From positions 124,471 to 188,470 of the forward strand of contig NZ_QGGQ01000009.1 in the NCBI RefSeq assembly GCF_003148665.1: 64,000 nucleotides of DNA, written 5' to 3'. The notes beneath the pieces are model-generated. The model saw nothing but the letters and a program-made list of their open reading frames with translations. It did not search any database and had not been told where the DNA came from. Made by a program: the position numbers and the translations under genes. Position 1 is the first letter of the stretch; the number at the start of each line of letters is the position of its first letter. Below, in pieces: positions 38,040 through 64,000 of the stretch. The DNA is from Maribacter polysiphoniae. Lineage in GTDB: Bacteria; Bacteroidota; Bacteroidia; Flavobacteriales; Flavobacteriaceae.

Positions 38040-39053
38040 ATGTACGAGCCTAGAACATTTTTGGATAAATTGTTTTTGGTTATCAAGGGCCTTGCCATGG
38101 GCGCTGCCAATAAGGTGCCTGGGGTCTCTGGGGGCATTGTGGCCTTCGTTGGGGGATTCTATGAGGAATTCATCTATTCCCTTCAAAAAATAAACTTTAA
38201 AGCCGTGAAATTGCTTCTGAACGGTAGGTTCCGAAGTTTCTATCGTTACATAAACGGCCAATTTTTGACACTTCTCATTTTTGGTATGCTCGTAAGTTAT
38301 TTCAGTGTATCCAAATTGCTCGATTATTTCCTGGAAAGAAAGGAACTTTTTGTCTGGGCCACCTTTTTCGGAATGATCTTAGGATCGATCTACTATATTT
38401 CAAAGGATTTCAAACACTGGAATAAAAAAACACTGACGGCCGGCATCCTAGGACTTGTCTTCGGCATATCCATAAGTTTTTTGAGTCCCGCCAGGGAGAA
38501 TGACAATCTTTGGTTCATTTTCCTATGCGGAATGATCAGTGTATCGGGTATGACCCTGCCTGGATTATCGGGTTCTTTTATCCTTATCCTATTGGGAAAT
38601 TATGTGCTACTCTTAGTTGATTCCGTTAACGCCCTCTATGACTCCATGGCCGAAATGTTACGGGGTGATTTTAGCTTTGTAAGAAACCATGAAAGGTTGG
38701 AAACCTTGAAGATCCTTGCTGTATTCACCCTAGGGTCTGCCACAGGGTTAGTTACCCTTTCACACATACTCACCTATGTACTGAAGCACTTTAAACACAT
38801 TACTACGGCCGTTATCATTGGATTCATCACTGGATCATTGGGAGTGGTATGGCCCTGGAAGCGAACGATTTTCAAAACAGATGGGGACGGACAACTATTT
38901 TTGGATTCAAACGGCAAGGAAATAATCCTTAATTACGAAAGGTACTTACCTGATTTTACCGCGACAGAAACGTGGTGGGCCATATTCTTTGTCATCTTGG
39001 GTATATTTATTTTATTAGGTTTGGAATGGTATGGGGATTATAGAAAAAAATAA
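38040..39053 (+). CDS. DUF368 membrane protein (PopT-like), copy 2
   Basis: A 337-residue paralogue of the preceding gene with the same two signatures: MGAANKVPGVSGGIVAFVGG (about 20-39) and GMTLPGLSGSFILILLGNY (about 172-190). It is somewhat longer, with an added loop before the last transmembrane helix (FKTDGDGQLFLDSNGKEI). The C-terminal 23 bases overlap the start of aroE, so the two are translationally linked. The division of labour between the two copies is unknown. Confidence 0.85.
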   Translation: MYEPRTFLDKLFLVIKGLAMGAANKVPGVSGGIVAFVGGFYEEFIYSLQKINFKAVKLLLNGRFRSFYRYINGQFLTLLIFGMLVSYFSVSKLLDYFLERKELFVWATFFGMILGSIYYISKDFKHWNKKTLTAGILGLVFGISISFLSPARENDNLWFIFLCGMISVSGMTLPGLSGSFILILLGNYVLLLVDSVNALYDSMAEMLRGDFSFVRNHERLETLKILAVFTLGSATGLVTLSHILTYVLKHFKHITTAVIIGFITGSLGVVWPWKRTIFKTDGDGQLFLDSNGKEIILNYERYLPDFTATETWWAIFFVILGIFILLGLEWYGDYRKK

Positions 39054-45634: not shown

Positions 45635-45819
45635 ACCACACAGGAGGGTACTTCATCACCTCAACATTACCTATACAAAAACGATTTCGTAGCGCAATCA
45701 GCGCTATTTCAACAACTTCCAATTCCTTGCAAACCCATATAACCTACAAGGCAAACAACTGCGAATAATCTATTTTATGTCCTTTTTTTTGAGATGTATG
45801 TTTTTTGTTGTGGTGTTTT

Positions 45820-45834
45820 TTAAGGAATCCTTAA
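45820..45834. promoter_or_regulatory. Candidate operator: perfect 7-1-7 palindrome
   Basis: TTAAGGAATCCTTAA is symmetric around one central base, so it cannot form a useful RNA hairpin and looks like a binding site for a dimeric regulator. It lies 132 nt before the susC start codon. The neighbouring LuxR-type regulator is the natural candidate to bind it (inference). Confidence 0.45.
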
Positions 45835-45874
45835 CCTTCCCTGTTAAATTTACCTTAACGAAAAGTAATCAAAA

Positions 45875-45934
45875 ATGAAATGCGCATAACGACGATCCCA
45901 TGGCAAAAGGAAACCTTGTTTATGCGAATTCCAT
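45875..45934 (+). promoter_or_regulatory. Imperfect inverted repeat in susC leader
   Basis: Arms ATGAAATGCGCATAA (45875-45889) and TTATGCGAATTCCAT (45920-45934) pair at 13 of 15 positions across a 30-nt spacer. It ends 32 nt before the susC ATG and could be an operator or an mRNA leader hairpin that limits susC translation. Confidence 0.45.
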
Positions 45935-45966
45935 CTGAAAAATTAAAAACTAACTAAAATTAACAG

Positions 45967-48900: not shown

Positions 48901-49113
48901 AAGAGTTTGATTTTGGGATATACCCTACCGGAATCATCAAATAACTTTTTTAGCAAGATACGGATCTATGCACAAGCCAAGAACCTCTTGACCTTGACTG
49001 ATTATACAGGTTATGATCCCGAAATATCCGGTGGAATATTAGACACTGGGGTTGACAGAGGTGCTTACCCACAAGCTAGAACAATCTTACTCGGTTTGGA
49101 TCTTAAATTTTAA
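45967..49113 (+). CDS. susC: SusC/RagA TonB-dependent outer-membrane transporter
   Basis: A 1048-residue SusC-type receptor that imports oligosaccharides across the outer membrane with energy from TonB. Signal peptide 1-19 (ending TFGQ), a carboxypeptidase-regulatory-like domain (about 22-95, VSGTVSDSGNMPIPGVNVIV), a TonB box near 103-110 (EEVVVIGYG), the plug (about 115-225, with VLVRGIPSFTGTDPVVIIDG), then a large beta barrel ending in LLGLDLKF. Length is standard. It starts the sus-like operon, 18 bp before susD. Substrate is inferred as beta-1,3-glucan oligosaccharides from the GH16 and phosphorylase neighbours. Confidence 0.95.
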   Translation: MKSKILFLTLFLITSFTFGQTTNVSGTVSDSGNMPIPGVNVIVKNTTKGTATDFDGIFTLNDVPINSTLVFSYLGFQSQEIVVTQSNQNFNVIMNEDTEALEEVVVIGYGTQKVTKVSGAISTVKSESIERLKPLRVEEALQGSASGVSVIQSGSPGSKPTVLVRGIPSFTGTDPVVIIDGVPQSLDDLNSINSADIQSLNILKDAASTAIYGVKGGNGVIVVTTKNGRKNEKAEFSFNTYTGFQSVIKKIGVLNASEYAGMINEGSVTAGGDLIFSDISDLGQGTDWQDEVFEDASVTSYSLSARGGSESIGYFLSTGYLSQGGIVGGNDKSNFNRLNFTANVDVQLTPKLKFILNSSYANIKSQTVAENSFNSIIGNALNFDPTVSVYNTDPNDYATYGYSNLLLSEIFNPVQRLEDTHNESNGDKLYGKFELQYDILDNLKITSRFGYTKWDQVSKSFTPLAYYGPNNVSSDYYADGTVKTQEVDNGDGTTSTIPSFHNSVTESTVSNFSYTFETYASYNFTLNEKHNFDAVLGISRSKSTGYGFGTTRQDVRDNAWEWADISAATGVNTELNTDAYTGYSYQDLERRNVSYFSRINYDYQGKYLASFSARRDGSIAFGDDNKFANFYAGSLGWVVTNENFFNSEAIDFLKIRGSYGTVGNENVDPQYVKITIGGPSYNSTANSNGYTFGTEFVSGATVNSFENPTLSWEEQTQYNIGFDATLFKDISITADYFNKSVDGLLFTDAPPLYAGTSEPVTSNIGSTESKGIDFTVGYSNNGAQDFKFNTSLTFTTSKNEVTETNSDGTAFVSGGSYFNGQSHNITRFEKGYTPGYFYGYKTDGLFQNQAEIDAHATQDGAQPGDIRFVDYNNDGIIDDDDKTKIGDPFPEFTLGWNVGFNYKNFDLSMFTYASVGNDIYRAYERNAQYSNKFRNILDRWTGEGTTNDATTPRYTFADTNSNIRPSDRYVEDGSFIKIKSLILGYTLPESSNNFFSKIRIYAQAKNLLTLTDYTGYDPEISGGILDTGVDRGAYPQARTILLGLDLKF

Positions 49114-49131
49114 CATCGAAATAATATCAGT

Positions 49132-50628
49132 ATGAAAAATATAAAAAACAGTATAAGCCTAATCATCATACTTACAACCTTGGTTGGTTGTTCAGACGTG
49201 GTTGAATTTGACCCGCATGATGAATACGAAGTAACTGAGGTGGACTATCTACAGACACAATCAGATTATGAAACCATGGCCGTCAGTTGCTATACACCCA
49301 CACAATGGCTCAACCAATTGGTGGTTATTGGTGATATCGCATCGGACAATGCCGTGGCCGGTGGTGAAAATGCATCCGATGTTGTTGCCTTACAGCAAAT
49401 AGATGACCATGCCATATTAACCAATAACAGCACCCTTGAGGATTTATGGAAATCAGCTTACGAGGGCGTTAACAGAACCAATTACCTTATCAGCTATAAA
49501 GATGTTAACCTACTAGGCGAAACCGTTGAATTCGATGGAAAGGAAGCACTGTATGGCGAAGTTTATTTCTTAAGGGCCTATTACTATTTCAACTTGGTGA
49601 AAATGTTCGGAGACGTGGTGCTCTTTACCGACCATAAGCTGGGCCTATCGGATTTTGGTACTTTACAAAGGTCCCCCAAGGAGGATGTTTACGCACAAAT
49701 CGAAATAGACCTACTTGACGCTATCAGTGTTTTACCAACAACACAATCGCAACAAGGAAGGATTACGAAATATGCGGCCCAAGCTTTGTTGGGTAAAGTA
49801 TATTTATATCAAGAAAAATTCTCAGAGGCAGCCGCAATGCTAGAGAATGTGGTAAACGGCCCCTTTAGCTTAGTGTCCAATTTTGATGACATCTTTTTAT
49901 TGGAAGGTGAAAACGGACCGGAATCGGTATACGAAGTACAATATTCCAACGGACAACCTTATTACAACTGGAGTGGCCAAACAAGAGGTCAAGGTAATTA
50001 TGCCGTACAACAATGTGGTGTAAGAGGTTTGAACGGAACAGCAGAGATGCCCTACAACTCGGGCTGGAGCACGAATCTGCCAACCCAAGACCTTGCTGCT
50101 GCTTATGAAAATGGGGACCAAAGAAAAAATGCTACGGTTTTCGATGTGGAAGCATATGCCAATGACAATCCTGGTTTAAACGTAACCTATCAGGTGGCAC
50201 CCTATAAAAATACTGATTTGTACAACAAAAAGTATTTACCTCGAAAAGGACAAACAAGCGGACAGGTAGAGTTGAATTACGAAAACAACCACCGCATAAT
50301 TCGCTATTCCGAAGTTTTATTAATGGCTGCAGAAGCCAATTTGAGATCGGCCACACCTAATGTGCCTAAAGCACAAGGTTATTTAGACCAAGTACGCGAT
50401 AGGGCCTTTGGCGATACAGACCATAGGGTTACTGCCACAGTTGATGCGATTTGGAACGAAAGACGTTTGGAGTTGGCTATGGAAGGGGATCGATTTTTTG
50501 ATCTAGTAAGAACGGGACAAGCTGCTTCGGTCTTAGGAAGTGGATATAATTCAGCCACCAACGGACTTTTCCCCATTCCACAGAATGAAATTGAAATTTC
50601 CAACCTCACCCAAAACGATGGTTACTAA
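49132..50628 (+). CDS. susD: SusD/RagB surface glycan-binding lipoprotein
   Basis: A 498-residue SusD-like lipoprotein that forms the lid of the SusC transporter and binds the glycan. Lipobox LVGCSD (Cys near 20), followed by acidic residues (SDVVEFDPHDEY) as expected for surface export. TPR-like helices include LYGEVYFLRAYYYFNLVKMFGDV (about 143-165, written in part) and ALLGKVYLYQEKFSEAAAML. The C-terminal RagB domain has IWNERRLELAMEGDRFFDLVR (about 441 onward). It is 18 bp from susC. Confidence 0.95.
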   Translation: MKNIKNSISLIIILTTLVGCSDVVEFDPHDEYEVTEVDYLQTQSDYETMAVSCYTPTQWLNQLVVIGDIASDNAVAGGENASDVVALQQIDDHAILTNNSTLEDLWKSAYEGVNRTNYLISYKDVNLLGETVEFDGKEALYGEVYFLRAYYYFNLVKMFGDVVLFTDHKLGLSDFGTLQRSPKEDVYAQIEIDLLDAISVLPTTQSQQGRITKYAAQALLGKVYLYQEKFSEAAAMLENVVNGPFSLVSNFDDIFLLEGENGPESVYEVQYSNGQPYYNWSGQTRGQGNYAVQQCGVRGLNGTAEMPYNSGWSTNLPTQDLAAAYENGDQRKNATVFDVEAYANDNPGLNVTYQVAPYKNTDLYNKKYLPRKGQTSGQVELNYENNHRIIRYSEVLLMAAEANLRSATPNVPKAQGYLDQVRDRAFGDTDHRVTATVDAIWNERRLELAMEGDRFFDLVRTGQAASVLGSGYNSATNGLFPIPQNEIEISNLTQNDGY

Positions 50629-50646
50629 TAACAAAAAGACTTTAAA

Positions 50647-52692
50647 ATGAAAACATTAAAATATATTTTAAGTGCTATTGTCCTTTTGACCACCTTTTGG
50701 GGTTGCGAGGAGGATAACTTTGACAACCTCGATTTTGTTGGATCGGCGGCTGCCCCCACCAATGTTTCTGCATTATTCGGTGTTACCCAAGACAATACGG
50801 GACTCGTAACGATAACCCCGAATGGTGAAGGCGCGGTTTCCTATACCATTTATTATGGCGATGACACCCCAGAGGCCGAGACGGTTTCACAAGGGGAAAG
50901 TACAGCCCATACATATGCCGAAGGTTCTTATACTGTAAAGATTATTGCTTATGGTATCACAGGCAAATCTTCAGAAACCACCTTGCCTTTAGAAGTATCG
51001 TTCAAGGCCCCTGAAAATTTAGAGGTCACCATTGCCAATGATGAAGCGATATCTAAACAAGTGAACGTTACTGCAAATGCCGATTATGCCATTTCCTTTG
51101 ATGTCTATTTTGGGGAAGAAGGTAATGACGATCCTGTTTCCGGCAATATAGGTGAAACGGTTTCTTATGTATATGCCGAACCTGGAACCTACACCATAAG
51201 GGTGGTTGCAAAAGGCGGTGCTATTGAAACTACCGATTATACACAGGAATTTGAAGCCGTGGCCATAGTACAACCCATAGCATCGGCCGCTACGCCACCA
51301 ACAAGAAGTGAGGATGATGTGATATCCATTTATTCCTCAAAATACACCAACATCCTTGATGTGAATTACAATCCCGATTGGGGACAATCAGGTCAAGGAA
51401 GTGGTTATGCGGAGTTCGACCTGAATGGAGATACCATGTTACAATACATTAACCTGAGCTATCAGGGCATTCAATTTTCAGCAGCAGAGGACCTTACCTC
51501 CATGGAATACTTACATATGGATGTTTGGACAGCAGATGCTGAAACCTTGGAAACCTCGTTGATCAGCTTAACCAATGGTGAAAAACCAGTGGTTTCAGAA
51601 TTGACCACTGATCAATGGACAAGTATCGATATTCCTATGTCCGCTTTTACAGACCAAGGTTTAACCGTGGCCGATATTCATCAACTTAAATTTGTAGGCA
51701 CCCCTTGGGCTGGAGGAACAGTCTTTATCGACAACCTATATTTTTATAGGGCATCGACTGCTCAGATAGATGGGTCACTTCCTATAAATTTTGAATCCGA
51801 CTATTTACTGAGCTCTTTCGACGGAGGCATTATTTCGACAGTCGAAAATCCAGATACTTCTGGAAACCCATCCGCTACGGTTTTGGAATTGGTCAAAGGT
51901 GACGGTCAAACTTGGGCAGGATCTAAAATAACCGTAGAAGATCCATACGATGTATCTGAGAACACTGTAGTTACTATGAAAGTATGGTCTCCTAGGGAAG
52001 GATTGAATGTATTGATGAAATTCGAGGATGATGCTGTTTGGCCCGATACTTCCGCCACAAGTGAAATAACGGCAACCACTACCGTTGCCAATGCTTGGGA
52101 AGAACTATCGTTTACCGTTACAGGAGTTGATTCCAGTCTTGATTATTATAATTTGGTATTGATCATGGATAATGGAACCGTAGGTGATGGTTCAAGTGAT
52201 TATACAATCTATGTTGATGACATTTCAATCGCCTCATTCTTGGATTTTGAAGAAGATTATTCCATGAGTTCTTTTGATGGTGGATCTATGGCTACAGTTG
52301 AAAACCCAGATACCTCTGGCAATTCTTCCGCTACGGTAGCACAGTTGGTCAAAGGTGCTGGTCAAACTTGGGCAGGATCTAAAATAACCGCAGAGGAGCC
52401 TTTCGATATTGAAGAAGGCACCACGATCAAGATCAAGGTATGGTCACCACGGGAAGGATTGAATTTATTGATGAAATTCGAGGATGCTGCTGCTTGGCCA
52501 GACACTTCGGCTACAGATGAAATTACCGTCGCTACCACAGTTGCCAATACTTGGGAAGAACTAACGTATACCATTACAGGTGTTGATTCCAGTCTAGAAT
52601 ATTACAATTTGGTATTGATCATGGATAATGGAACAGTTGGTGATGGATCAAGCGATTATACCATCTACGTTGATGATATTTCACAAAACTAA
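50647..52692 (+). CDS. Surface glycan-binding lipoprotein with duplicated CBM-like modules
   Basis: A 681-residue SusE-position lipoprotein. Lipobox FWGCEEDN: Cys at about 20 followed by acidic residues, as in surface-exported lipoproteins. Domains in order: two PKD-like modules (about 35-115, ending TLPLEVSF; and 117-200), a beta-sandwich resembling a carbohydrate-binding module (about 215-370, with VDVW-like and WTSIDIPMSAF), then two near-identical 149-residue sandwich modules (about 380-528 and 532-680), each with DTSGNxSATV, TWAGSKIT and KVWSPREGLN. No catalytic residues were recognised. It should capture the glucan at the cell surface for SusCD. Confidence 0.85.
   Translation: MKTLKYILSAIVLLTTFWGCEEDNFDNLDFVGSAAAPTNVSALFGVTQDNTGLVTITPNGEGAVSYTIYYGDDTPEAETVSQGESTAHTYAEGSYTVKIIAYGITGKSSETTLPLEVSFKAPENLEVTIANDEAISKQVNVTANADYAISFDVYFGEEGNDDPVSGNIGETVSYVYAEPGTYTIRVVAKGGAIETTDYTQEFEAVAIVQPIASAATPPTRSEDDVISIYSSKYTNILDVNYNPDWGQSGQGSGYAEFDLNGDTMLQYINLSYQGIQFSAAEDLTSMEYLHMDVWTADAETLETSLISLTNGEKPVVSELTTDQWTSIDIPMSAFTDQGLTVADIHQLKFVGTPWAGGTVFIDNLYFYRASTAQIDGSLPINFESDYLLSSFDGGIISTVENPDTSGNPSATVLELVKGDGQTWAGSKITVEDPYDVSENTVVTMKVWSPREGLNVLMKFEDDAVWPDTSATSEITATTTVANAWEELSFTVTGVDSSLDYYNLVLIMDNGTVGDGSSDYTIYVDDISIASFLDFEEDYSMSSFDGGSMATVENPDTSGNSSATVAQLVKGAGQTWAGSKITAEEPFDIEEGTTIKIKVWSPREGLNLLMKFEDAAAWPDTSATDEITVATTVANTWEELTYTITGVDSSLEYYNLVLIMDNGTVGDGSSDYTIYVDDISQN
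51784..52230 (+). repeat. Internal tandem module, copy 1
   Basis: First copy of a 149-residue module inside the surface glycan-binding protein (residues 380-528). It matches copy 2 at 52240-52686 without gaps; by eye roughly three quarters of residues are identical, and the last 30 or so are almost fully identical. Confidence 0.85.
52240..52686 (+). repeat. Internal tandem module, copy 2
   Basis: Second copy of the module (residues 532-680). Period to copy 1 is 456 bp. DNA similarity is highest at the 3' end, including a shared TTGGTATTGATCATGGATAA stretch. Confidence 0.85.
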
Positions 52693-52717
52693 TAAGTCTA
52701 AATAATTAAATGAACTT

Positions 52718-54343
52718 ATGAAAAATTCTAAAATATTATTTAAAACCATCTTCTTGGTACTGACGACCCTCTTGGTTTCGTGCGAAGAAAAAGAGTATGA
52801 ATTCGGGGACATTATCGCGCCATCGAATTTGGACATCAATTCTGTAATTGTAGGTCAGGATACGGAAAACCCTTATGGGGATGGTTCTGGTGCCGTAAAT
52901 TTTACAGCATCGGCATCGGACGCCCTTACCTATAAATATATTTATAATGGCAAGGAAGAAATGGCACCTACGGGGGAATTGACCATTAACTTCTCAACTA
53001 CAGGGATAAATAATTACAATGTTACCGTACAAGCCTTCGGCAAAGCAGGTGTTAGTACTACGGAAACCATCGAAGTGGAAGTATTAGCCCTTTATTCCGC
53101 TCCCGATGATCTATTGGAAATGCTTTATGGTGACGGAGAAAAGACTTGGAGGGTTAAAGCTGAGTCCGTAGGTCATTTCGGCGTAGGTCCCGCAGACGGT
53201 ACCTCACCTGACTGGTGGGCTGCTCCAGCTTATGATAAATCTGGCCTCGGGGCATATGACGACAGAATTACGTTTAAGTCCGATGGTACCGTTACGTATA
53301 CTACCAATGGAACCATTTACGGTCAGGCCTCTGCTTTGGATGCGGATTACGGAATTTCATGGGAAGCCAATTCAAATAGCGAATATGAAAATTATCCCGT
53401 TGATGAATTTTCGGACACTTGGTCGTTGACTGCTCCCGAGGGTCAAGAAACCTTGAATTTTGATGGCAATGGTTTCCATGGCTTCTATGTGGGTGGCGAT
53501 CATAGCTACGCCATTCTTGAACGTACGGATACTGAAATGACGATAAAAACTATTGGCGCAGATGGCCTTGGTTGGTTTGGTATATTGACTTCCGAAGAGG
53601 AACCTACAGACGAAGAAGCGACCGTTGATGTCACGTATTCCAATTTAATTTGGTCCGATGAGTTCGATACCGATGGGGCACCGGATACTGCCAAATGGAC
53701 CTATGATATTGGAATAGGTTCCAATGGATGGGGCAATAATGAATCCCAATATTACACCAATAGAGCCGATAACGTAACCATATCCGAAGGTACGTTAAAG
53801 ATTACGGCCAAAAAGGAAAGTTACGAAGGGTCTGAATATACCTCTGCTAGAATGAAAACCCAAGACTTGTTTGAGTTTACCCATGGTAGGGTCGATGTTC
53901 GAGCAAAATTACCAGCAGGGGGCGGAACATGGCCTGCCCTTTGGATGTTGGGAGCGAATTTTGAAACAGTAAGCTGGCCTGCTTGTGGGGAGATAGATAT
54001 TATGGAGCATGTGGGTAACGACGAAGGTACCGTACATGGTTCCATTCACAATACCTCAAGTTCTGGTGCAACTATAAATACCGGTGAAACAACAGTAAGC
54101 GATGCTACTTCCGAATTTCATGTGTATTCGGTAAACTGGTCAGAAGATGAGATTTCATTCTTAGTAGATGATGAAATTTTCTATACCTACAGCCCAGACC
54201 CAAAAGATGGGGATACTTGGCCATTTGACGCCGATCAGTTCATTATCATGAATGTTGCCATGGGTGGCAACTTCGGAGGGGCTATAGATACCTCTTTTAC
54301 AGAAGCAACGATGGAGGTTGATTACGTTAGGGTTTATCAATAA
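52718..54343 (+). CDS. GH16 endo-beta-1,3-glucanase (laminarinase-type) lipoprotein
   Basis: A 541-residue lipoprotein. Lipobox LVSCEE with acidic residues after the Cys (EEKEYEF) suggests surface display. A PKD-like module (about 30-118) and an unrecognised module (about 128-290, Trp/Gly-rich, DWWAAPAYDKSGLGAYDD) precede a C-terminal GH16 domain (about 308-541). The catalytic motif is GEIDIMEHVG: Glu425 nucleophile, Asp427, Glu430 acid/base, in the laminarinase-like EIDxxE form with the extra Met. It should cut internal beta-1,3 links outside the cell. A strong terminator follows, so the sus-like unit ends here. Confidence 0.9.
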   Translation: MKNSKILFKTIFLVLTTLLVSCEEKEYEFGDIIAPSNLDINSVIVGQDTENPYGDGSGAVNFTASASDALTYKYIYNGKEEMAPTGELTINFSTTGINNYNVTVQAFGKAGVSTTETIEVEVLALYSAPDDLLEMLYGDGEKTWRVKAESVGHFGVGPADGTSPDWWAAPAYDKSGLGAYDDRITFKSDGTVTYTTNGTIYGQASALDADYGISWEANSNSEYENYPVDEFSDTWSLTAPEGQETLNFDGNGFHGFYVGGDHSYAILERTDTEMTIKTIGADGLGWFGILTSEEEPTDEEATVDVTYSNLIWSDEFDTDGAPDTAKWTYDIGIGSNGWGNNESQYYTNRADNVTISEGTLKITAKKESYEGSEYTSARMKTQDLFEFTHGRVDVRAKLPAGGGTWPALWMLGANFETVSWPACGEIDIMEHVGNDEGTVHGSIHNTSSSGATINTGETTVSDATSEFHVYSVNWSEDEISFLVDDEIFYTYSPDPKDGDTWPFDADQFIIMNVAMGGNFGGAIDTSFTEATMEVDYVRVYQ

Positions 54344-54371
54344 TAGTTAGATTGAGTTTTGTTTGAGTTTT

Positions 54372-54403
54372 AAAAAAGGTTAGCGTAATACCTAACCTTT
54401 TTT
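54372..54403 (+). terminator. Rho-independent terminator after the GH16 gene
   Basis: A 12-bp stem (AAAAAAGGTTAG / CTAACCTTTTTT, loop of 8 nt), 28 nt after the stop. It divides the susCD-binding protein-GH16 unit from the GH30 unit. Confidence 0.85.
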
Positions 54404-54525
54404 ATCTTAAACCGTTTCATAATCCATACCCAATCAAACGGAATAAAAACATGGGAATCCGTAACGTCATCCACTGGAATTCCATAGATATGATTTTACA
54501 GCAATAAATTCCAACCATCAATACA

Positions 54526-56046
54526 ATGAGAAGTTTAAACAGAAGTGGTTTTTTATTCAGCGTAACGGCATTCTTCCTATTGCCACTGTTATTGACAAAC
54601 TGTACACCCAAAAATAAAAAAATCGAGGAAAGCTCCACCGGGAAACCTTCCATCGAAATAAATGGGATTTCGGTCCATACAATGAAAGGTAATATCTATA
54701 CCACCGCCCATAAGACCGATTTAAAACTTACCAAAACAGGGACGGTATCATTCGGTGACACCGAACAGCCCCTAGAAACTGAAATAGATATTTATGTAAA
54801 TCCGAACAAACAATTTCAATCACTAGTGGGCATAGGCGCAGCCTTGACCGATGCCGCTGCCGAGACTTTTTATAAACTTTCGAAAGATAACCAAGAAAAA
54901 TTCCTGGAAGCCTATTTCGATAAGGACAAAGGCATCGGCTATTCCTTAGGCCGTACCATTATCCATAGCTGTGACTTTTCATCGGGTAGCTATACCTATG
55001 TTGATGAAGGTGATGCCGAACTAAAAACGTTCAATATAGCCCACGATCGTAAATATCGCTTGCCTTTTACTAAAAAGGCTATCGCCGCTACAGGGGGTAA
55101 ATTAACCATGTATGCAAGTCCATGGAGTCCACCCGCATTTATGAAAACCAATAACAACATGTTGCAGGGCGGTAAACTGAAACCGGAATTTTATCAATCT
55201 TGGGCCAATTATTATGTGAAGTTCATCGAGGCATACGAGGCGGAAGGTATTCCTATCTGGGGGTTGACCATCCAAAATGAGCCCATGGCCGTACAGCGAT
55301 GGGAATCATGTATATACACCGCTGAAGAAGAACGCGATTTTCTCAAGAATCACCTGGGACCAACTTTGGAAAAAGCAGGTATGTCAAATAAAAATGTTAT
55401 TGTTTGGGACCACAATAGGGATTTACTCTTTCAAAGGGCAAGTATTATCTTGGACGATCCTGATGCTGCAAAATATGTATGGGGTACCGGTTTTCATTGG
55501 TATGAGGATTGGAAAGACGGTATACCCATGTTTGATCATGTTCAAAGGGTACATGAGGCGTATCCCGATAAAAATCTAATATTCACTGAAGGGTGTAACG
55601 AAGGCTATGACATTGACCAAATAGATGAACCTAGGCTTGCCGAACGCTACGGAAGGTCTATGATCAATGATTTCAACAATGGCACAGTGGCATGGACCGA
55701 TTGGAACATCCTACTGGATGAAACCGGGGGACCAAACCATGTGGGCAATCTATGTTTCGCACCTGTTCACGGGAATACGAAAACCGGTGAACTTATGTTC
55801 ACGAATTCCTATTACTATATTGGTCATTTCTCCAAGTTCATCCGGCCCGGCGCAAAAAGAATCAGTAGTGTTTCCTCCTCAAACAGCTTACTGTCCACCG
55901 CATTCATCAATGAGGACGGCAGCATTGCCATAATTACCATGAATCAGAGTGATAAGACATTGCAATATAGTATAACCATCGCTGAAAACAAGGCAGATAT
56001 CGACCTTCCAGCCCATGGCATTCAGACCATCCTATTATCCGAATAA
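54526..56046 (+). CDS. GH30 family beta-glucosidase/beta-1,6-glucanase, lipoprotein
   Basis: A 506-residue GH30 enzyme. Lipobox LLTNCT (Cys near 26) without acidic residues next to it, so a periplasmic location is more likely than the surface. The TIM barrel holds the acid/base Glu252 in LTIQNEPMAVQRWESC and the nucleophile Glu355 in LIFTEGCNEGYD; a C-terminal beta-sandwich follows. In laminarin loci GH30 enzymes remove beta-1,6-linked side glucoses; specificity here is inferred from context. It begins its own unit after the terminator at 54.4 kb. Confidence 0.9.
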   Translation: MRSLNRSGFLFSVTAFFLLPLLLTNCTPKNKKIEESSTGKPSIEINGISVHTMKGNIYTTAHKTDLKLTKTGTVSFGDTEQPLETEIDIYVNPNKQFQSLVGIGAALTDAAAETFYKLSKDNQEKFLEAYFDKDKGIGYSLGRTIIHSCDFSSGSYTYVDEGDAELKTFNIAHDRKYRLPFTKKAIAATGGKLTMYASPWSPPAFMKTNNNMLQGGKLKPEFYQSWANYYVKFIEAYEAEGIPIWGLTIQNEPMAVQRWESCIYTAEEERDFLKNHLGPTLEKAGMSNKNVIVWDHNRDLLFQRASIILDDPDAAKYVWGTGFHWYEDWKDGIPMFDHVQRVHEAYPDKNLIFTEGCNEGYDIDQIDEPRLAERYGRSMINDFNNGTVAWTDWNILLDETGGPNHVGNLCFAPVHGNTKTGELMFTNSYYYIGHFSKFIRPGAKRISSVSSSNSLLSTAFINEDGSIAIITMNQSDKTLQYSITIAENKADIDLPAHGIQTILLSE

Positions 56047-56111
56047 AAGACTTAAATTAGAGAAGAAAAGAGATTGTAACCAGAATCAATTAACCACTAA
56101 ATACCATAACC

Positions 56112-57653
56112 ATGCAAAAAGCCGATACCGTTGTAAAAATGAATAATACTTATACCATTCTTATAAGTCTCATTGTGGCCTTAGGGGGTTTTTTATTGGG
56201 TTTTGACAGCGCCGTTATCTCGGGTGCTGTAAAGGGAATAACGGTTTATTTTGAGATGACCGAATTGATGTTGGGTTTTGCAGTAGGCTGTGTGGTTTTT
56301 GGTGCAATGGCCGGAAACATCGTGGCAGGCCCTATGGCCGATAAATTCGGCAGAAAAAAAGTACTCATTGTCGTTGCCGCTCTTTTTACCATCTCGGCAA
56401 CATGGTCGGCCATGGCCACTGGCTATACCGAATTCATTATTGCCCGGATCATCGGTGGCATCGGTATTGGAGGTGCCATTTTGATCGCCCCGATTTATAT
56501 TGCTGAAATTGCCCCACCCAAATTAAGGGGCAGTTTGGTATCCTTCAATCAATTGAATATTGTAATTGGGATATCAGTGGCCTATTTCTCCAATTATTTT
56601 TTGGTGAATCTGGAAGGGGAAAGTTGGAAATGGATGTTAGGGGTCGAAGCCATTCCCGCACTTATTTACTTTCTTGCATTATGGACCGTACCCCGTAGTC
56701 CAAGATGGTTGATCCTAAAATTGAACAAAGTGGAATTGGCGCAAAAAACATTACAAAAAATCGGTGGTGATGCCTATGCCGAAGTAACCATTGCCGAAAT
56801 TCAACGGGGCATTGACAAAAAAGAGGAAAAAGGCAAGCTTTCGGATATTTTCAAAAGTAAGTATGCAACCATAATGATCATTGCCTTGGGTATTGCGTTC
56901 TTTCAACAAATAACCGGAATCAATGCCGTATTTTATTATGCGCCAACCATCTTTGAACAAGCAGGTGGCAGTACCGATTCATCCTTTCTGCAGGCTATTG
57001 TAGTCGGACTTACCAATTTGGTTTTTACGTTGGTGGCGATATGGTTGATTGACAGGCTAGGGAGAAAACCCTTATTGTTGATAGGAACAACATTTATGAC
57101 CATCGCGCTTTTAATGGCAGCTATGGCCTTCAATAATGCCACTTACGATTTTAATGAAACCACATTGTCTAAAATCGGGGATCCCGAGATAAAAAATGCA
57201 TTGATTGATTTGGAAGGAAAATCCTTTGACAGTCAGGCTGCACTTTTCGCGGAAATCGAACCTAAATTAAAACAAGAACAGTTCTTGGACTTCAAGCGAA
57301 ACCAGATTACCAATTTTATCCAAATCAATGCGACCTTGGTATTAATTGCCATTCTCCTTTATGTGGCCTCATTCGCTATTTCACTTGGCCCTGTTATGTG
57401 GACATTGCTTTCTGAGATATTCCCGAATAAAATAAAGGGCATTGCCATATCCGTTGTTGGCTTTTTCAATTCATTGGTCAGTTTTTCGGTCACCCAGGTA
57501 TTTCCATGGGAACTTTCATCCCTAGGGCCCACAGCCACATTCGGTATTTATGCGCTCTTATCGTTCTGCGCCATCCTCTTTGTGTACAAATTTGTCATAG
57601 AAACCAAAGGGAAAACCCTAGAAGAAGTAGAAGAATTATTAATTAGAAAATAA
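56112..57653 (+). CDS. MFS sugar porter (sugar/H+ symporter)
   Basis: A 513-residue major facilitator protein of the sugar porter family (XylE/GLUT-like) with twelve transmembrane segments. Family motifs: LLGFDSAVISGAVKGI (about 25-40), DKFGRKKVLI (about 76-85), PRSPRWLI (about 195-202), FQQITGINAVFYYAPTIFEQ (about 263-282), DRLGRKPLLLIG (about 315-326) and VIETKGKTLEEVEE at the C-terminus. It also has an unusual inserted loop after helix 9-10 (about 360-400). It should carry glucose or short beta-gluco-oligosaccharides across the inner membrane. It lies between GH30 and a GH-A enzyme. Confidence 0.9.
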   Translation: MQKADTVVKMNNTYTILISLIVALGGFLLGFDSAVISGAVKGITVYFEMTELMLGFAVGCVVFGAMAGNIVAGPMADKFGRKKVLIVVAALFTISATWSAMATGYTEFIIARIIGGIGIGGAILIAPIYIAEIAPPKLRGSLVSFNQLNIVIGISVAYFSNYFLVNLEGESWKWMLGVEAIPALIYFLALWTVPRSPRWLILKLNKVELAQKTLQKIGGDAYAEVTIAEIQRGIDKKEEKGKLSDIFKSKYATIMIIALGIAFFQQITGINAVFYYAPTIFEQAGGSTDSSFLQAIVVGLTNLVFTLVAIWLIDRLGRKPLLLIGTTFMTIALLMAAMAFNNATYDFNETTLSKIGDPEIKNALIDLEGKSFDSQAALFAEIEPKLKQEQFLDFKRNQITNFIQINATLVLIAILLYVASFAISLGPVMWTLLSEIFPNKIKGIAISVVGFFNSLVSFSVTQVFPWELSSLGPTATFGIYALLSFCAILFVYKFVIETKGKTLEEVEELLIRK

Positions 57654-57660
57654 ACATAAA

Positions 57661-58980
57661 ATGAAGCATATATTGATCCTATTCTCCTTTTTGGTGCTTT
57701 TCTCCTGCAAAGAGAATACGGCCAACAAGCAAGCAAAAAGCGAGTCCGAAAAACCAAATGGTCCCGCAAAAGTAGAAATACAGAACAAGGACGGTAAATA
57801 CAGATTACTGGTCAATAACAAGGAATTCTATATTAAAGGTGCAGGATTGGAATTTGGCAATATCGAATCCTTGGCCCAACACAACGGAAATTCTTTCAGG
57901 ACATGGCGTACCGAGAACGGTAAAAGACCGGCCTTGGAAGTATTGGATGAAGCCCATACGAATGGCCTCATGGTCACTATGGGTATTGAAGTTGCCAGGG
58001 AACGACATGGTTTTGATTACAATGATTCGATTGCTGTGAAAAATCAGTTTGAGGATATCAAAAAACAAGTACTTGCATTAAAGGACCATCCTGCACTGAT
58101 GATCTGGGGTATAGGTAATGAATTGAATCTCCATTACACCAATCCGAAAGTATGGGATGCCGTGAACGACATTTCCAAAATGATCCATGAAGTGGATCCC
58201 AACCATTTGACCACCACAAGTTTGGCCGGTATTTCCCAAAAGGAAGTCACTTTGATAAAAGAGAAATGTTCCGATCTTGATATCCTTTCGGTTCAGATGT
58301 ATGGTGATCTTCCCGATCTACCGAATTTGGTAAAGAAATTCGGTTGGACAGGTCCTTATATGGTAACGGAATGGGGAGCCACCGGTCATTGGGAAGTACC
58401 CACAACAAAATGGGGAGCCCCTATCGAGGACAACAGCACGGTAAAAGCAGCGAATTACCTAAAACGTTACAAAGGGGGCATCGAAGCCGATTCCCTACAA
58501 TGCATCGGATCTTATGTGTTCTTATGGGGCAACAAACAAGAACGTACCCCTACTTGGTATGGTATTTTTCTTGAGGATGGAAAGGAAACCGAATCTGTTG
58601 ACGTAATGCATTATATCTGGAATGGCACTTGGCCAGACAACAGAACCCCGCAAATAGTGTCCTATACCCTAAATGGCAAAACCGCCTTGGAAAGCGTTGT
58701 TCTAAAAGCAAATGAGGTCGCCAATGCCAAGGTCGAGATCAAGGATTTCGAAAATGACGCGATTACCTATAAATGGGAGATTTTACCAGAGAGCACCGAC
58801 CTCAAAGACGGAGGCGATTATGAAGAACGTCCTAAGGCCGTCACTTTGGATAGTATCAAAAATAGCCCAGGAAAACTTTCCTTCAAAGCTCCGGAAAAAG
58901 GACATTATAGGCTATTTATTTATGCCAATGATGGGCAAAACCATTCGGCTACCGCCAATATCCCTTTTATGGTAGACTAA
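57661..58980 (+). CDS. Clan GH-A glycoside hydrolase lipoprotein, GH158-like
   Basis: A 439-residue lipoprotein: lipobox LFSCKE (Cys near 16). A TIM barrel (about 50-320) carries the clan GH-A catalytic pair, with acid/base Glu154 in IWGIGNELN and nucleophile Glu237 in VTEWGATGHW. A C-terminal Ig-like domain (about 330-438) follows. GH2 enzymes share these motifs, but the lack of GH2 N-terminal domains, the size, and the barrel-plus-Ig layout fit GH158 (endo-beta-1,3-glucanase) better. It starts 7 bp after the MFS gene. Family assignment is moderate; a beta-1,3-glucan role is inferred from context. Confidence 0.7.
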   Translation: MKHILILFSFLVLFSCKENTANKQAKSESEKPNGPAKVEIQNKDGKYRLLVNNKEFYIKGAGLEFGNIESLAQHNGNSFRTWRTENGKRPALEVLDEAHTNGLMVTMGIEVARERHGFDYNDSIAVKNQFEDIKKQVLALKDHPALMIWGIGNELNLHYTNPKVWDAVNDISKMIHEVDPNHLTTTSLAGISQKEVTLIKEKCSDLDILSVQMYGDLPDLPNLVKKFGWTGPYMVTEWGATGHWEVPTTKWGAPIEDNSTVKAANYLKRYKGGIEADSLQCIGSYVFLWGNKQERTPTWYGIFLEDGKETESVDVMHYIWNGTWPDNRTPQIVSYTLNGKTALESVVLKANEVANAKVEIKDFENDAITYKWEILPESTDLKDGGDYEERPKAVTLDSIKNSPGKLSFKAPEKGHYRLFIYANDGQNHSATANIPFMVD

Positions 58981-59000
58981 CAAACACAATCTTTTGAATA

Positions 59001-59048
59001 GGGAAACCACAGTAAAGAATAACACCTTCTATCGGGGTTTCCCCTTTT
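59001..59048 (+). terminator. Weak hairpin before the phosphorylase gene
   Basis: GGGAAACC (59001-59008) can pair with GGTTTCCC (59036-59043) across a 27-nt loop, followed by CTTTT. It could attenuate read-through into the phosphorylase gene, or be chance. Confidence 0.35.
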
Positions 59049-59073
59049 ATCAAATCAAAACGCAACCCATACC

Positions 59074-62000
59074 ATGACCATCGATCATTTATACATTGGC
59101 AACAGCATATCCGCTATAAAGGAATTGAACGTAAAAGGTGAATTCGTCCAAATCGATAATGAAAGCTTTTATAAAATATCGAATAGCAATGCTATGAGAC
59201 CTTTTTTCATGAGTATCGTTAGCGATTCCAACCATTGGATGTTTTTATCGAGCAATGGGGGGTTGACCGCTGGTCGTAAGAACAGCGATTATGCACTTTT
59301 CCCTTACTATACCGATGATAAGATTACTGAGTTTGCAGAATCAACAGGTAGCAAGACCATCCTTCTCGTAAAATCAAAGGGGAAGACCTTTCTCTGGGAG
59401 CCCTTCTCCGAGAGATATTCCAACATTTATGATATCACTCGAAACCTCTACAAAAACAGTTATGGCAACAAGGTGATTTTTGAGGAAACCAATAATGACC
59501 TTGGTCTTACTTTTCAATACCAATGGAACTCGAGCAACGAATTCGGTTTTGTAAAAAAATCGAGAATCATTAACCAAACAGACCATAAGGTTGAAGTTTC
59601 CGTACTGGATGGCATTCAGAATATCATGCCATACGGCGTCCCCGAGGACATGCAAAACACACGTAGCAATTTGGTCGATGCCTATAAGAAAAGTGAACTG
59701 GAAACCGATACGGGTTTGGGTATATACGCCTTGAGTGCTATAATCGTTGATAAGGCCGAACCTAGTGAAGCGTTAAAATCGAACATCGCTTGGTCCCTCG
59801 GAATCGATGTTGACACCTATTTACTATCCTCCAAACAACTGGAAGCCTTTAGACGCGGAAAAAACATAACATCCGAAATCAATATCCGGGCAGAGAAAGG
59901 AGCCTATTTCATTAAATCAGACATCTCCCTGAATTCAAAATCGGAAAAAAGTTGGATGATCATTGCCGATGTAAACCAAACCATTTCCGCGATAAACCTA
60001 TTATCGGAAAGGATTCTTAAAGAAGGAGATCTTATTGAATCCATTGAAAAGGATATCAGCAATGGAACAAGGCAATTGATTGATCTTACCATAGCTGCCG
60101 ATGGTTTGCAACTCACAGCGGACAGATTGATCAACACAAGGCATTTTGCCAATACCCTTTTCAATATTATGCGTGGTGGGATTTTTGACCATAATTACCA
60201 AATTGAAAAGTCGGATTTTATCCCATACATTGAAAAAGCCAACAGGCAGGTAGCTAAAGAACAGAAAGAATTACTTGATGATTTACCAGGTATTTTTTCT
60301 TTATCCACCGTAAAGGAAATGGCAGCACAAAGTGATGATAGCGACTTTAAAAGACTTTGTTTTGAGTACCTACCCCTAAAATTCAGTAGAAGACATGGTG
60401 ACCCGAGTCGCCCTTGGAACAAATTTTCAATCAACACCAAAAGTGAATTGGACGGCTCCAAGATCCTGGATTACCAAGGTAATTGGAGGGATATTTTTCA
60501 AAATTGGGAGGCATTGGCCCACTCCTATCCTGAGTTTATGGAGCATATGATCCATAAATTCCTTAACGCCACCACCTTTGAAGGGTACAACCCCTATCGT
60601 GTAACAAAAGACGGATTTGATTGGGAGGTCATAGAAGAAAACGACCCTTGGTCCTTTATAGGGTACTGGGGCGATCATCAGATCATTTACCTTCTAAAGT
60701 TTTTGGAATTTATAGAAAACCACAACCCGAATAAACTTGCGAGTTATTTTAATCAGGAATTATTCGTTTACGCCAATGTTCCTTATAAAATAAAGAGCTA
60801 TCCCGATACGCTCAAGAATCCCAAAGACACTATTGGGTTCGATGCCCCTTTGGATTTCGAATTGGCAGAAAGAAAAAACAAGTTGGGTGCCGATGGCGCC
60901 TTACTGACTATCGATGATGAAGGTATTTATCATGTGAATCTGATTGAAAAACTACTGGCCACTGTCCTGTCCAAAGTGTCGAATTTCATTCCCGAAGGCG
61001 GAATTTGGTTAAATACACAACGCCCCGAATGGAATGATGCCAATAATGCCCTTGTCGGAAATGGCGTGTCAATGGTCACGCTCTATTATCTAAGGCGTTT
61101 CGTCAAATTCTTCGGAAAGCTGATTGAGGCCTTGCCAGAAGGCGCCCCAATCTCCAAAGAACTCAAATTGTTTTTTGACCAAGTGGTCACAACCCTGGAA
61201 ACCCACAAGCATATTCTAGATGGTAAAATTACCGATAGGGACAGAAAACTTGTTCTGGATGGTTTGGGCAATGCAGGTAGCACCTATAGATCTTCGATTT
61301 ATGCTAAAGGTTTTTCGAACCAAAAAGAGATGGTTTCCAAAACTGAATTAGCATCTTTCTTGGCGATTGCGGAAAAATTCTTCGACCATACGATTGATGC
61401 GAATCAAAGAGTGGATAAATTATACCATTCATATAATTTAATGACGGTTGTGGATGACAGCGAAATCTCAATTTCCTATTTGAATGAAATGCTCGAAGGG
61501 CAGGTTGCCGTTTTAAGTTCAGGTAAACTAAGTCCAAAAGCGGCCTTGGAACTATTGGATGCGTTAAAGCAGAGTGCTTTATACCGGGCAGACCAGAACA
61601 GTTACATACTCTACCCCAATAAGGAATTAAAACGATTTAAGGACAAAAACAACATCCCCAAGGATTTTATTGCCAAATCACAACTTGCACAGCAGCTTTT
61701 AAAGGACGGCAACACCCAAATCATTGAAAAGGATATCTTGGGGCACTATCATTTCAATGGTAATTTCAATAATGCCAATAGTCTTGAAAAAGCCTTGTCC
61801 CAGTTAACGATTGACGCCTATGGATCGCTTGTGGAAAAGGATACGGATTTGCTTTTAGAGGCTTTTGAGAATGTCTTTGACCATAAATCGTTCACAGGAA
61901 GATCTGGAACATTTTTTGGCTACGAAGGTTTAGGTTCTATATATTGGCATATGGTTTCCAAGCTGTTGTTGGCGGTCCAGGAAAATTGTCTTACCGCCAT

Positions 62001-62535
62001 CAATACCAATGAAAGCGATAATGTCATTCTTCGATTGAAAGCGCACTATCAAGAAATTTTCGAAGGTATCGGAGTACACAAATCCCCGGAATTGTACGGG
62101 GCATTCCCCACAGACCCCTACTCCCACACCCCTGCAGGCAAAGGTGCCCAACAACCTGGAATGACTGGACAGGTCAAAGAGGATATTTTAAGTAGGTTTG
62201 GTGAACTGGGTGTTTTTGTTGTAAAAGGGAAGCTACAGTTTAATCCAAAACTATTGCGAAAAGAAGAATTTCTAAACACCGACGAGGTTTTCAGGTATGT
62301 TACCGTTGATGGCGAACCCAAGGAAATATCCTTAACAGCCAATTCATTGTGCTTTAGCTATTGCCAAATACCAATTGTATATAAACGTATGGACAAGAAA
62401 GGATTGGTCGTTTTATTTAAGGATGGGACTTCGAAAAATTACAATGACCTGTATTTGGATAAGGATTTAAGTCGCAAGGTTTTTAAACGGGAGGGTACGA
62501 TTGAACAAATCATCGTGCATATTCCAAAGGAATGA
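59074..62535 (+). CDS. Putative beta-1,3-glucan phosphorylase (GH149/GH161-like)
   Basis: An 1153-residue cytoplasmic protein (no signal peptide). It looks like a large inverting glycan phosphorylase related to GH94. The N-terminal beta-sandwich is about 1-320. The barrel has YQGNWRDIFQNWEAL (about 469-483), then PWSFIGYWGDHQIIY, and the motif RPEWNDANNALVGNG (650-664) matching the GH94 D-W-N-D catalytic segment, so Asp655 is the likely general acid. A phosphate-site-like HTPAGKGAQQPGMTGQVKED segment starts at His1018. The length fits the beta-1,3-glucan phosphorylase families GH149 and GH161 (about 1100-1200 residues) rather than shorter GH94. It should turn imported beta-1,3-glucan oligomers into glucose-1-phosphate. 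Which of the two families applies is not decided. Confidence 0.7.
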   Translation: MTIDHLYIGNSISAIKELNVKGEFVQIDNESFYKISNSNAMRPFFMSIVSDSNHWMFLSSNGGLTAGRKNSDYALFPYYTDDKITEFAESTGSKTILLVKSKGKTFLWEPFSERYSNIYDITRNLYKNSYGNKVIFEETNNDLGLTFQYQWNSSNEFGFVKKSRIINQTDHKVEVSVLDGIQNIMPYGVPEDMQNTRSNLVDAYKKSELETDTGLGIYALSAIIVDKAEPSEALKSNIAWSLGIDVDTYLLSSKQLEAFRRGKNITSEINIRAEKGAYFIKSDISLNSKSEKSWMIIADVNQTISAINLLSERILKEGDLIESIEKDISNGTRQLIDLTIAADGLQLTADRLINTRHFANTLFNIMRGGIFDHNYQIEKSDFIPYIEKANRQVAKEQKELLDDLPGIFSLSTVKEMAAQSDDSDFKRLCFEYLPLKFSRRHGDPSRPWNKFSINTKSELDGSKILDYQGNWRDIFQNWEALAHSYPEFMEHMIHKFLNATTFEGYNPYRVTKDGFDWEVIEENDPWSFIGYWGDHQIIYLLKFLEFIENHNPNKLASYFNQELFVYANVPYKIKSYPDTLKNPKDTIGFDAPLDFELAERKNKLGADGALLTIDDEGIYHVNLIEKLLATVLSKVSNFIPEGGIWLNTQRPEWNDANNALVGNGVSMVTLYYLRRFVKFFGKLIEALPEGAPISKELKLFFDQVVTTLETHKHILDGKITDRDRKLVLDGLGNAGSTYRSSIYAKGFSNQKEMVSKTELASFLAIAEKFFDHTIDANQRVDKLYHSYNLMTVVDDSEISISYLNEMLEGQVAVLSSGKLSPKAALELLDALKQSALYRADQNSYILYPNKELKRFKDKNNIPKDFIAKSQLAQQLLKDGNTQIIEKDILGHYHFNGNFNNANSLEKALSQLTIDAYGSLVEKDTDLLLEAFENVFDHKSFTGRSGTFFGYEGLGSIYWHMVSKLLLAVQENCLTAINTNESDNVILRLKAHYQEIFEGIGVHKSPELYGAFPTDPYSHTPAGKGAQQPGMTGQVKEDILSRFGELGVFVVKGKLQFNPKLLRKEEFLNTDEVFRYVTVDGEPKEISLTANSLCFSYCQIPIVYKRMDKKGLVVLFKDGTSKNYNDLYLDKDLSRKVFKREGTIEQIIVHIPKE

Positions 62536-62540: not shown

Positions 62541-64000
62541 TCATTTCCCTTCTTTCTGATAATCCTTATTGAAATACCCGCCCCTATTTTCTTTTTGTTC
62601 GAGGGATTGACTGATGATCACATGGGCAACGTTAACCATATTCCTTAGTTCACAAAGCGTTGTGGTGATTTTGGATTCCTTATACAATTCCTCTACTTCC
62701 CGATATATCAAATCCAAACGGGCAATGGCCTTATGCAATCTTTTATTGCTACGTACAATTCCGACATAGTTACGCATTAATGCCTGCAATTCCTTCAAAT
62801 TGTGTTGGATCAAAACATGCTCCTTGGGTATGCTCGTTCCCTCATCATTCCAATCGGGAATATTCAAGGGTCTTGAATCCAAGGTATCCACACTTAGATA
62901 TTTAAAAATGTTATGGGCATAGACCAAGGCTTCCAAAAGCGAATTGGATGCCAATCTATTGGCCCCATGCAATCCGGTTCTTGAACATTCCCCACAAGCG
63001 AATAAATTATCTATGGATGTCTTTCCTTGTTTATCAACTACAATTCCGCCACACAGGTAATGGGAAGCCGGAACGACCGGAATCCAATCCTTCTCGACAT
63101 CAATATGGTATTCCAGACATTTATCATAGATATTGGGGAAATGCTTTTTGAATGCGACCATGTCTAGATGGGTACAATCAAGAAAAACGTGTGTATCCCC
63201 ACTTTTCTTCAATTCATTATCGATACATTGGGAAACAATATCCCTTGAAGCCAACTCTGCCCTATCATCATAATCAGGCATAAACCGATATCCGGCCTTA
63301 TTACGCAGGTAAGCCCCAAATCCCCGAACAGCCTCAGAAATCAAAAAATAAGACCCTCCTTCCGGGTTATATAATGCCGTAGGGTGAAATTGAATGAATT
63401 CCATATCCTTTATCAAGGCTTTTGCCCTATAGGCCATGGCAATACCGTCACCTGTTGCAATGATAGGATTGGTCGTATGCCCATACACCCGGCCAATACC
63501 TCCAGAGGCCAATAAGGTATGGTCTGCCTTTATCGTAAGTATTTCCCCGTTTTTTTGGTTCAACACATAAGCCCCATAACAAGAAATACCATTGGCACTT
63601 TGTCTTTCCAACTGGTGATCGGTAATTAGATTAATGGCGAAATGGTGCGCCAAAAGTTCAATATTCGGTAATTGATGTACGCGTTGTAAAAGGGCCCGTT
63701 CAACTTCGTAACCCGTAACATCCTTATGATGTACAACCCGATATTCTGAATGTCCACCTTCCTTGCCCAAATCAAAATCACCTTCCGAATTCAAGTCAAA
63801 ATTGGCTTCCCATGCAATCAGTTCCTTAAGTCGTTTTGGTCCTTCCTTAACGACCATTTCCACCACATCCTTATCGCAAAGTCCATCACCCGCAACCAAG
63901 GTGTCGTGAATATGTTTTTGAAAGGAATCCTCTTCCATATCCAATACCACGGCAATCCCACCCTGGGCGTACTTGGTGTTCGATTCATCCTCATCGCCCT
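62541..64000 (-). CDS. nadB: L-aspartate oxidase NadB, N-terminus beyond the window
   Basis: Partial gene: 62541-64000 is the C-terminal ~486 residues, and the reading frame runs off the window end with SNTKYAQGGIAVVL, so the N-terminal FAD loop is missing. NadB oxidises aspartate to iminoaspartate for NAD synthesis. Recognisable parts: LLASGGIGRVYGHTTNP, FIQFHPTALYNPEGG, AVRGFGAYLRNKAGYRFM, and the substrate-site segment VPASHYLCGGIVVDKQGKTS followed by LFACGECSRTGLHGANRLAS. The C-terminus is the usual helical bundle. It converges with the phosphorylase gene, 5 bp apart. Confidence 0.95.
   Translation of the reverse strand, partial: GDEDESNTKYAQGGIAVVLDMEEDSFQKHIHDTLVAGDGLCDKDVVEMVVKEGPKRLKELIAWEANFDLNSEGDFDLGKEGGHSEYRVVHHKDVTGYEVERALLQRVHQLPNIELLAHHFAINLITDHQLERQSANGISCYGAYVLNQKNGEILTIKADHTLLASGGIGRVYGHTTNPIIATGDGIAMAYRAKALIKDMEFIQFHPTALYNPEGGSYFLISEAVRGFGAYLRNKAGYRFMPDYDDRAELASRDIVSQCIDNELKKSGDTHVFLDCTHLDMVAFKKHFPNIYDKCLEYHIDVEKDWIPVVPASHYLCGGIVVDKQGKTSIDNLFACGECSRTGLHGANRLASNSLLEALVYAHNIFKYLSVDTLDSRPLNIPDWNDEGTSIPKEHVLIQHNLKELQALMRNYVGIVRSNKRLHKAIARLDLIYREVEELYKESKITTTLCELRNMVNVAHVIISQSLEQKENRGGYFNKDYQKEGK

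Follow-up and report, generated by a model that had tools for sequence, protein, structure and literature searches.

The window analyzed here is a stretch of 64,000 nucleotides from Maribacter polysiphoniae (contig NZ_QGGQ01000009.1). Positions 42824–62535 hold nine genes on the same (+) strand, with 7–332 bases between neighbors, in the order regulator, SusC, SusD, PKD-domain protein, GH16, GH30, MFS, GH158, and GH149. These genes and those on either side are as follows.

39873–41975: DUF349 gene, preceding the regulator
42824–45634, + strand: putative locus regulator with Y_Y_Y and LuxR-type (GerE) helix-turn-helix domains (Pfam PF07495, 39 bits, cut-off 26.6)
45967–49113, + strand: SusC-type TonB-dependent outer-membrane transporter (TIGR04056, 819 bits, cut-off 368)
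49132–50628, + strand: SusD-type surface glycan-binding lipoprotein (PF07980, PF14322; lipobox LVGC)
50647–52692, + strand: probable surface glycan-binding protein with PKD domains and a duplicated C-terminal domain (PF18911, PF00801)
52718–54343, + strand: GH16 laminarinase-like lipoprotein (endo-β-1,3-glucanase; PF00722, 5.3e-27; lipobox LVSC)
54526–56046, + strand: GH30 lipoprotein, probable β-1,6-glucosidase (PF02055, 3e-73; lipobox LTNC)
56112–57653, + strand: sugar-porter MFS of the XylE/GLUT type, predicted H+ symporter, 513 aa (PF00083, 2.2e-111)
57661–58980, + strand: GH158 endo-β-1,3-glucanase, probable lipoprotein (matches to 9oro and 6pal; LFSC)
59074–62535, + strand: GH149 β-1,3-glucan phosphorylase, predicted cytoplasmic, 1153 aa (NF058639, 6hq6)
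62541–63998, opposite strand: FAD-binding protein, directly 3' of the locus

The helix-turn-helix of the regulator (Pfam PF00196) scores 22.4 bits, just below the cut-off of 23.5. Lipoboxes were recognized by pattern in the SusD, GH16, and GH30 proteins; those of the PKD protein (FWGC) and GH158, missed by the pattern, were identified by eye. The coordinates in an earlier note on this DNA (56112–62535) are exact, and the MFS and 1153-aa ORFs lie on the same strand. The note had described the second as following the first; both are present, but the GH158 ORF, which it did not name, stands between them. Its statement that GH3 and GH17 are absent holds for all nine proteins, none of which matches either family in Pfam or NCBIfam (for the MFS protein, among the best 25 of 45 NCBIfam families). 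The same locus is carried by Maribacter aquimaris (L105), with 93% identity over 16.3 kb, the downstream gene included. In the PKD-domain binding protein, a C-terminal domain of ~147 residues is duplicated (51788–52683), and the DNA repeat copies (51788–52227 and 52244–52683) cross-match the L105 copies at ~80–82%. Elsewhere in the window, two adjoining VCA0040-like genes of the undecaprenyl phosphate translocase family (PF04018) lie at 37104–39053, and GH97, GH109-type, and Gfo/Idh/MocA oxidoreductase genes are clustered at 26709–32387.

The 1153-residue protein, proposed in the earlier note to be a phosphorylase of GH149 or GH161, is placed by profile search in GH149, inside the β-1,3-glucan phosphorylase family. 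It matches the NCBIfam GH149 model NF058639 over residues 18–1150 with 1794 bits (cut-off 1150) and is collinear with the solved GH149 enzyme Pro_7066 (6hq6) at 1588 bits. GH161 and GH94 were rejected as families, a GH161 chain and a chain named cellobiose phosphorylase reaching only 62 and 61 bits, respectively. No GH94 model is found among the Pfam and NCBIfam matches, and the single Pfam match, PF04275 with 15.1 of 33.8 bits, is below the cut-off and meaningless. The label "GH94-like" is right at the clan level only, GH149 and GH94 both being assigned to clan GH-Q in PMC6771811, and is wrong as a family name. Both motifs noted earlier, RPEWNDANN with Asp655 and GMTGQVKED (residues 1029–1037), are present and identical in Pro_7066. 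We take the latter to have a phosphate-related role, as in GH94 enzymes. Residues R470, D471, W651, N652, D653, E951, and H959 of Pro_7066 correspond to R472, D473, W653, N654, D655, E951, and H959, all identical. The WND motif, the RD motif, and the His and Glu of the sugar-phosphate site are thus kept, and the roles of these residues are given in section 3.2 of PMC6771811. All 92 distinct GH149 rows, that of the window among them, share nine catalytic or phosphate-side positions, including T1031 and G1032, without change. A crude hydrophobicity score, used instead of SignalP, recognizes no N-terminal signal in this protein, nor in 129 GH149 ORFs of more than 1100 residues from the fetched loci (duplicates included); this agrees with the cytoplasmic location given earlier, which is itself a prediction. 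The release of glucose-1-phosphate and the saving of ATP by this enzyme would follow from the established reaction of the family. Two loci (L111 and L123) each have two adjoining GH149 ORFs, resembling a split or a duplication.

Although the window enzyme matches Pro_7066 (PDB 6hq6, 6hq8) over its whole length and keeps all seven catalytic-site residues, it differs in the surface oligosaccharide site. Both stacking tyrosines (Y841 and Y993), E838, and E990 are replaced; K831, E994, and R1062 are kept, and E982 is D (Pro_7066 numbering). Judged by these residues, the site is eroded relative to that of Pro_7066. Among the 92 distinct GH149 rows (window included, His counted as aromatic), the window and L155 are alone in lacking an aromatic residue at both tyrosine positions; the sister locus retains Y at the 993 position. 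Leaving aside a single row that has neither transporter, 10 of 21 rows with a porter but lacking MFS_2 have lost one or both aromatics, compared with 4 of 70 rows with MFS_2 (plain Fisher test, 3e-5). On a FastTree tree, the sign test over 7 independent pairs on starred branches was not significant (median p 0.625). A tie between surface-site loss and transporter type was thus not upheld once kinship was considered, and it is kept as a lead only.

ORF 57661–58980 matches the solved GH158 chains 9oro (1.3e-90) and 6pal (2.3e-72), the latter of which we take to be BuGH158. It carries N153, the acid/base E154, and the nucleophile E237 at the positions of N136, E137, and E220 of BuGH158, which are reported in PMC7157763. 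Since GH158 is an endo-β-1,3-glucanase family (PMC7157763), the locus has a second endo-enzyme despite the missing GH17, whose absence would be partly offset in this way. The GH16 ORF matches the solved laminarinase 3iln with 222 bits. The GH30 ORF matches 2wnw with 297 bits and stays below the cut-off of the endo-1,6-glucanase model NF053856 (273 of 700 bits); by analogy with FbGH30 (PMC6246565), it probably strips the β-1,6 side chains of laminarin. Canonical loci (L048, L052, L054, L057, L060, and others) contain an ORF of ~332–351 residues between GH17 and GH30. With GH158 scores of 21–38 bits, these ORFs were not counted as GH158, and they may correspond to the gene that published laminarin loci list as unclassified or GH2-like.

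The MFS protein is a member of the sugar porters (PF00083, 373 bits, cut-off 22; TIGR00879, 365 bits, cut-off 238), and its nearest solved chains by sequence are XylE and GlcP. Its AlphaFold model (mean pLDDT 87.4) is closest to XylE (4gby), and the nearest solved folds are XylE and GLUT3, including one maltose-bound GLUT3. The porter resembles XylE, GlcP, and GLUT in fold, in the positions of XylE D27 and R133, and in most hexose-site residues. Indeed, D27, R133, Q168, Q288, Q289, N294, Y298, N325, F383, G388, and W392 of XylE are all kept, and the changes are F24 to L, Q175 to I, L297 to F, Q415 to N, and W416 to S. Most of these positions presumably bind sugar. XylE with the double change Q175I/L297F is reported to transport glucose at roughly 10% of its rate for xylose (PMC8784342). 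The porter of the locus is predicted to be an H+ symporter.

Distinctively, the porter differs from XylE, GlcP, and GLUT in having L, N, and S at XylE F24, Q415, and W416 and in an insert of ~61 residues: 67 residues lie between XylE columns 362 and 368, where XylE has 6. The insert, at about residues 342–403, falls in the helix 9–helix 10 loop, which faces the periplasm in the usual topology; the model gives it a small helical element and short strands (block-mean pLDDT 81–90). Of 71 distinct porter ORFs from GH149/GH158 loci, 67 have at least 50 residues between these columns, against 3 of 17 others. The comparison is biased, as the linked set was collected through GH149/GH158 or beside the window's kin and the 17 others were short loci from one 12-genome search; several rows are truncated copies of a single gene, and a 136-residue porter fragment in L053 was left out of the counts. 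The insert is not confined to GH149/GH158 loci, because three porters outside them (L204, L205, and L216) carry it; the linked porters without it are those of L143, L152, and L156 and the second porter of L119. In most insert-bearing porters, XylE Q415 and W416 are replaced by N and S, which could make the site wider.

Of 199 sampled genomes of the family, 71 carry GH149 (own genome included; 70 above the cut-off); the 14 controls gave none. In the genus, 8 of 12 genomes carry it (own included), seven above the cut-off and one as a weak fragment with stops. From 73 GH149 places, 60 neighborhoods were fetched; that of the window was omitted, as were 12 others that lie close to the end of a contig or on a contig taken as short (length known for two). 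The fetched stretches span ~20 kb, and the whole locus is not visible in every genome. These 60 neighborhoods contain MFS_2 in 55 cases, GH17 in 53, GH16 in 53, GH30 in 48, a sugar porter in 16, GH3 in 12, and a full GH158 in 8. A sugar porter without MFS_2, as in the window, is present in five (L062, L080, L085, L099, and L100); L080 has a weak GH17-like ORF below the Pfam cut-off, and the porter, GH158, and GH30 of L100 lie on the opposite strand from GH149. Within the genus, G200, G201, and G202 have a porter adjoining GH149 together with GH17 and MFS_2, and the window, G199, and G032 have GH158 without GH17 or MFS_2 in the fetched stretch.

A second set comprised GH158 loci, of which 82 were found and 80 kept. 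A sugar porter lies directly upstream of GH158 in 39 of them and GH149 directly downstream in 27 (any upstream ORF is present in 76 and any downstream ORF in 78); anywhere in the stretch, GH149 occurs in 35, GH17 in 14, and MFS_2 in 18. GH149 was not matched in 14 of 18 tested genomes with GH158, 17 of which had been chosen for the absence of GH149 from the stretch and for none of which is completeness given. Since insert-bearing porters sit in the GH158 stretch of 10 of these 14 genomes, the porter is not tied to GH149, and it seems to work in some places without it. In Gammaproteobacteria (L148, L151, L153, L154, L157, and L184), an insert-bearing porter is located between GH3 and GH158, and five of these six genomes gave no GH149 match.

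The own genome as a whole contains 11 GH3 matches, none inside the window, and one GH158 plus one weak match. Four strong MFS_2-type genes lie outside the locus and are 23–29% identical to locus-linked MFS_2 proteins, which are 37–95% identical to one another; other sugar porters are also present. SusC/SusD together with GH16, GH30, and GH149, as in variant-1 laminarin PULs, are all in the locus. GH17, which in variant-1 PULs, as we read PMC10108472, is often fused to an MFS protein, was found neither in the locus (Pfam) nor in the own genome by Pfam or by a one-GH17-protein query, searches that a more distant GH17 could escape: the Pfam search matched no control genome and so is not informative by itself, and the one-protein query matched G175, G200, and G202 strongly and G201 and G056 weakly. 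Because this GH17 feature is missing, we name the locus a laminarin locus of a variant kind and not variant-1. The best reading is a variant of the known laminarin locus with a less usual layout.

The locus shares SusC/SusD, GH16, GH30, MFS, and GH149 with the variant-1 loci of marine Flavobacteriia and the Formosa loci (PMC10108472, PMC6246565), but it lacks their GH17, MFS_2, and MFS_2-GH17 fusion and has a sugar-porter MFS and GH158. With the GH149 clusters of Kuhaudomlarp et al. 2018 (PMC5827456), it shares GH149, TonB-dependent transport, GH16, and MFS, although the MFS of their type II clusters is pfam13347 (MFS_2) and that of the window is PF00083. The Bacteroides 1,3-glucan loci with BuGH158 likewise have SusC/SusD and the endo-glucanases GH16 and GH158; as described in PMC7157763, they finish with a predicted periplasmic GH3, whereas the window has no GH3 but GH30, the porter, and GH149. 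The compact laminarin-type locus of the M. aquimaris clade contrasts with five other Maribacter strains, whose laminarin genes are, in the account of Kalenborn et al. (PMC11345257), scattered and not co-localized, with no GH17 or GH30.

The earlier note had seen here the best candidate for an under-described pathway, a view that does not stand. The GH149 family was established in 2018, and the same work placed it next to sugar transporters in β-1,3-glucan loci of Bacteroidetes, most of its Bacteroidetes genes lying in predicted loci with GH3 and/or GH30_1, GH17 and/or GH16 (PMC5827456), and 71 of the 199 family genomes carry it. The Formosa loci, studied on laminarin in the same year, contain a GH149 member (PMC6246565), and GH149 loci were described again in 2023 (PMC10108472) and 2026 (PMC13188888), the latter reporting GH149 in many Muricauda loci. 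Among genomes active in a North Sea bloom, 11 of 15 from Bacteroidetes and 7 of 18 from Gammaproteobacteria expressed variant-1 loci, with GH158 in some of the gammaproteobacterial cases (PMC10108472). The phosphorylase route is already known; it is the layout that is less usual. The open literature searched gave no account of the porter-GH158-GH149 layout or the porter insert; subscription papers and supplements lay outside this scope, and both features may be in print.

We consider it highly probable that 42824–62535, of which 56112–62535 is the inner half, serves laminarin utilization by import and cytoplasmic GH149 phosphorolysis. The locus shows family membership, conserved catalytic residues, gene order, and signals called by eye and by the crude score, and from the families we infer activities, locations, the order of steps, and laminarin as the substrate. 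SusC/SusD and the binding protein would capture the glucan, the lipoproteins GH16 and GH158 would cleave the β-1,3 backbone, and GH30 would remove β-1,6 side chains. The proton-coupled sugar porter would then move products across the inner membrane, and cytoplasmic GH149 would convert β-1,3-oligoglucosides with phosphate to glucose-1-phosphate and a shorter chain, down to glucose; GH149 substrates are β-1,3-oligoglucosides of DP 2 or more (PMC6484121). Being predicted cytoplasmic, GH149 would need oligosaccharide via some inner-membrane route, for which the window porter is a plausible candidate. The porter may carry glucose, short laminari-oligosaccharides, or both, and its residues point both ways.

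That the porter carries only periplasmic glucose, freed by GH30 and other exo-hydrolases, with another inner-membrane transporter feeding GH149, has a little less than an even chance. The largely kept XylE hexose site, with I/F at 175/297, is the reason to think that glucose may be its only cargo, and XylE and GLUT3 as nearest folds, the insert-bearing porters in the GH158 loci of 10 of the 14 genomes that gave no GH149 match, and the adjoining GH3 proteins with a secreted-like hydrophobic N-terminus in L148, L151, and L157 agree with this. The own genome also has other sugar porters and MFS_2-type genes, and the latter could serve GH149 instead. In contrast, 13 of 60 neighborhoods have the porter immediately upstream of GH149 or of a GH158-GH149 pair, and G104, which has GH149 with the porter module, gave no MFS_2 match in its genome (G056, G109, and G181 gave MFS_2 matches of <66 bits only); both observations support the porter as the importer for GH149, as does the maltose-bound GLUT3 among the nearest solved structures, which shows that such a fold can take a disaccharide. 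Moreover, N and S in place of Q415 and W416 could widen the site, and the GH3 proteins without a hydrophobic N-terminus near porters in genomes without a GH149 match (L153, L184, both in L146, and one of two in L144; start codons as given) would fit oligosaccharide import.

A porter remade for short laminari-oligosaccharides is a more tentative proposal. The folded insert of ~61 residues, placed at the periplasmic opening, and the Ser at the Trp416 position would admit laminaribiose or laminaritriose, which GH149 would split; the porter would replace the GPH-type importer and GH17, and GH149, seeing short chains only, would be losing its long-chain surface site. It is very improbable that GH149 runs in the synthetic direction, making β-1,3-glucan from glucose-1-phosphate: the reaction is reversible and Pro_7066 takes glucose as an acceptor (PMC6484121), but the gene belongs to a degradative locus, which also encodes import proteins and endo-glucanases, and published loci are read as degradative (PMC5827456, PMC10108472).

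Among these readings, laminarin utilization by import and cytoplasmic phosphorolysis is retained, and interest centers on the cargo of the insert-bearing sugar porter. Laminarin is a main carbon store of marine algae. If the porter carries laminari-oligosaccharides, the locus would hold an inner-membrane step of laminarin use distinct from the GPH-type MFS of 55 of the 60 GH149 neighborhoods, and this would aid the annotation of porter-GH158 clusters in Bacteroidota and Gammaproteobacteria.
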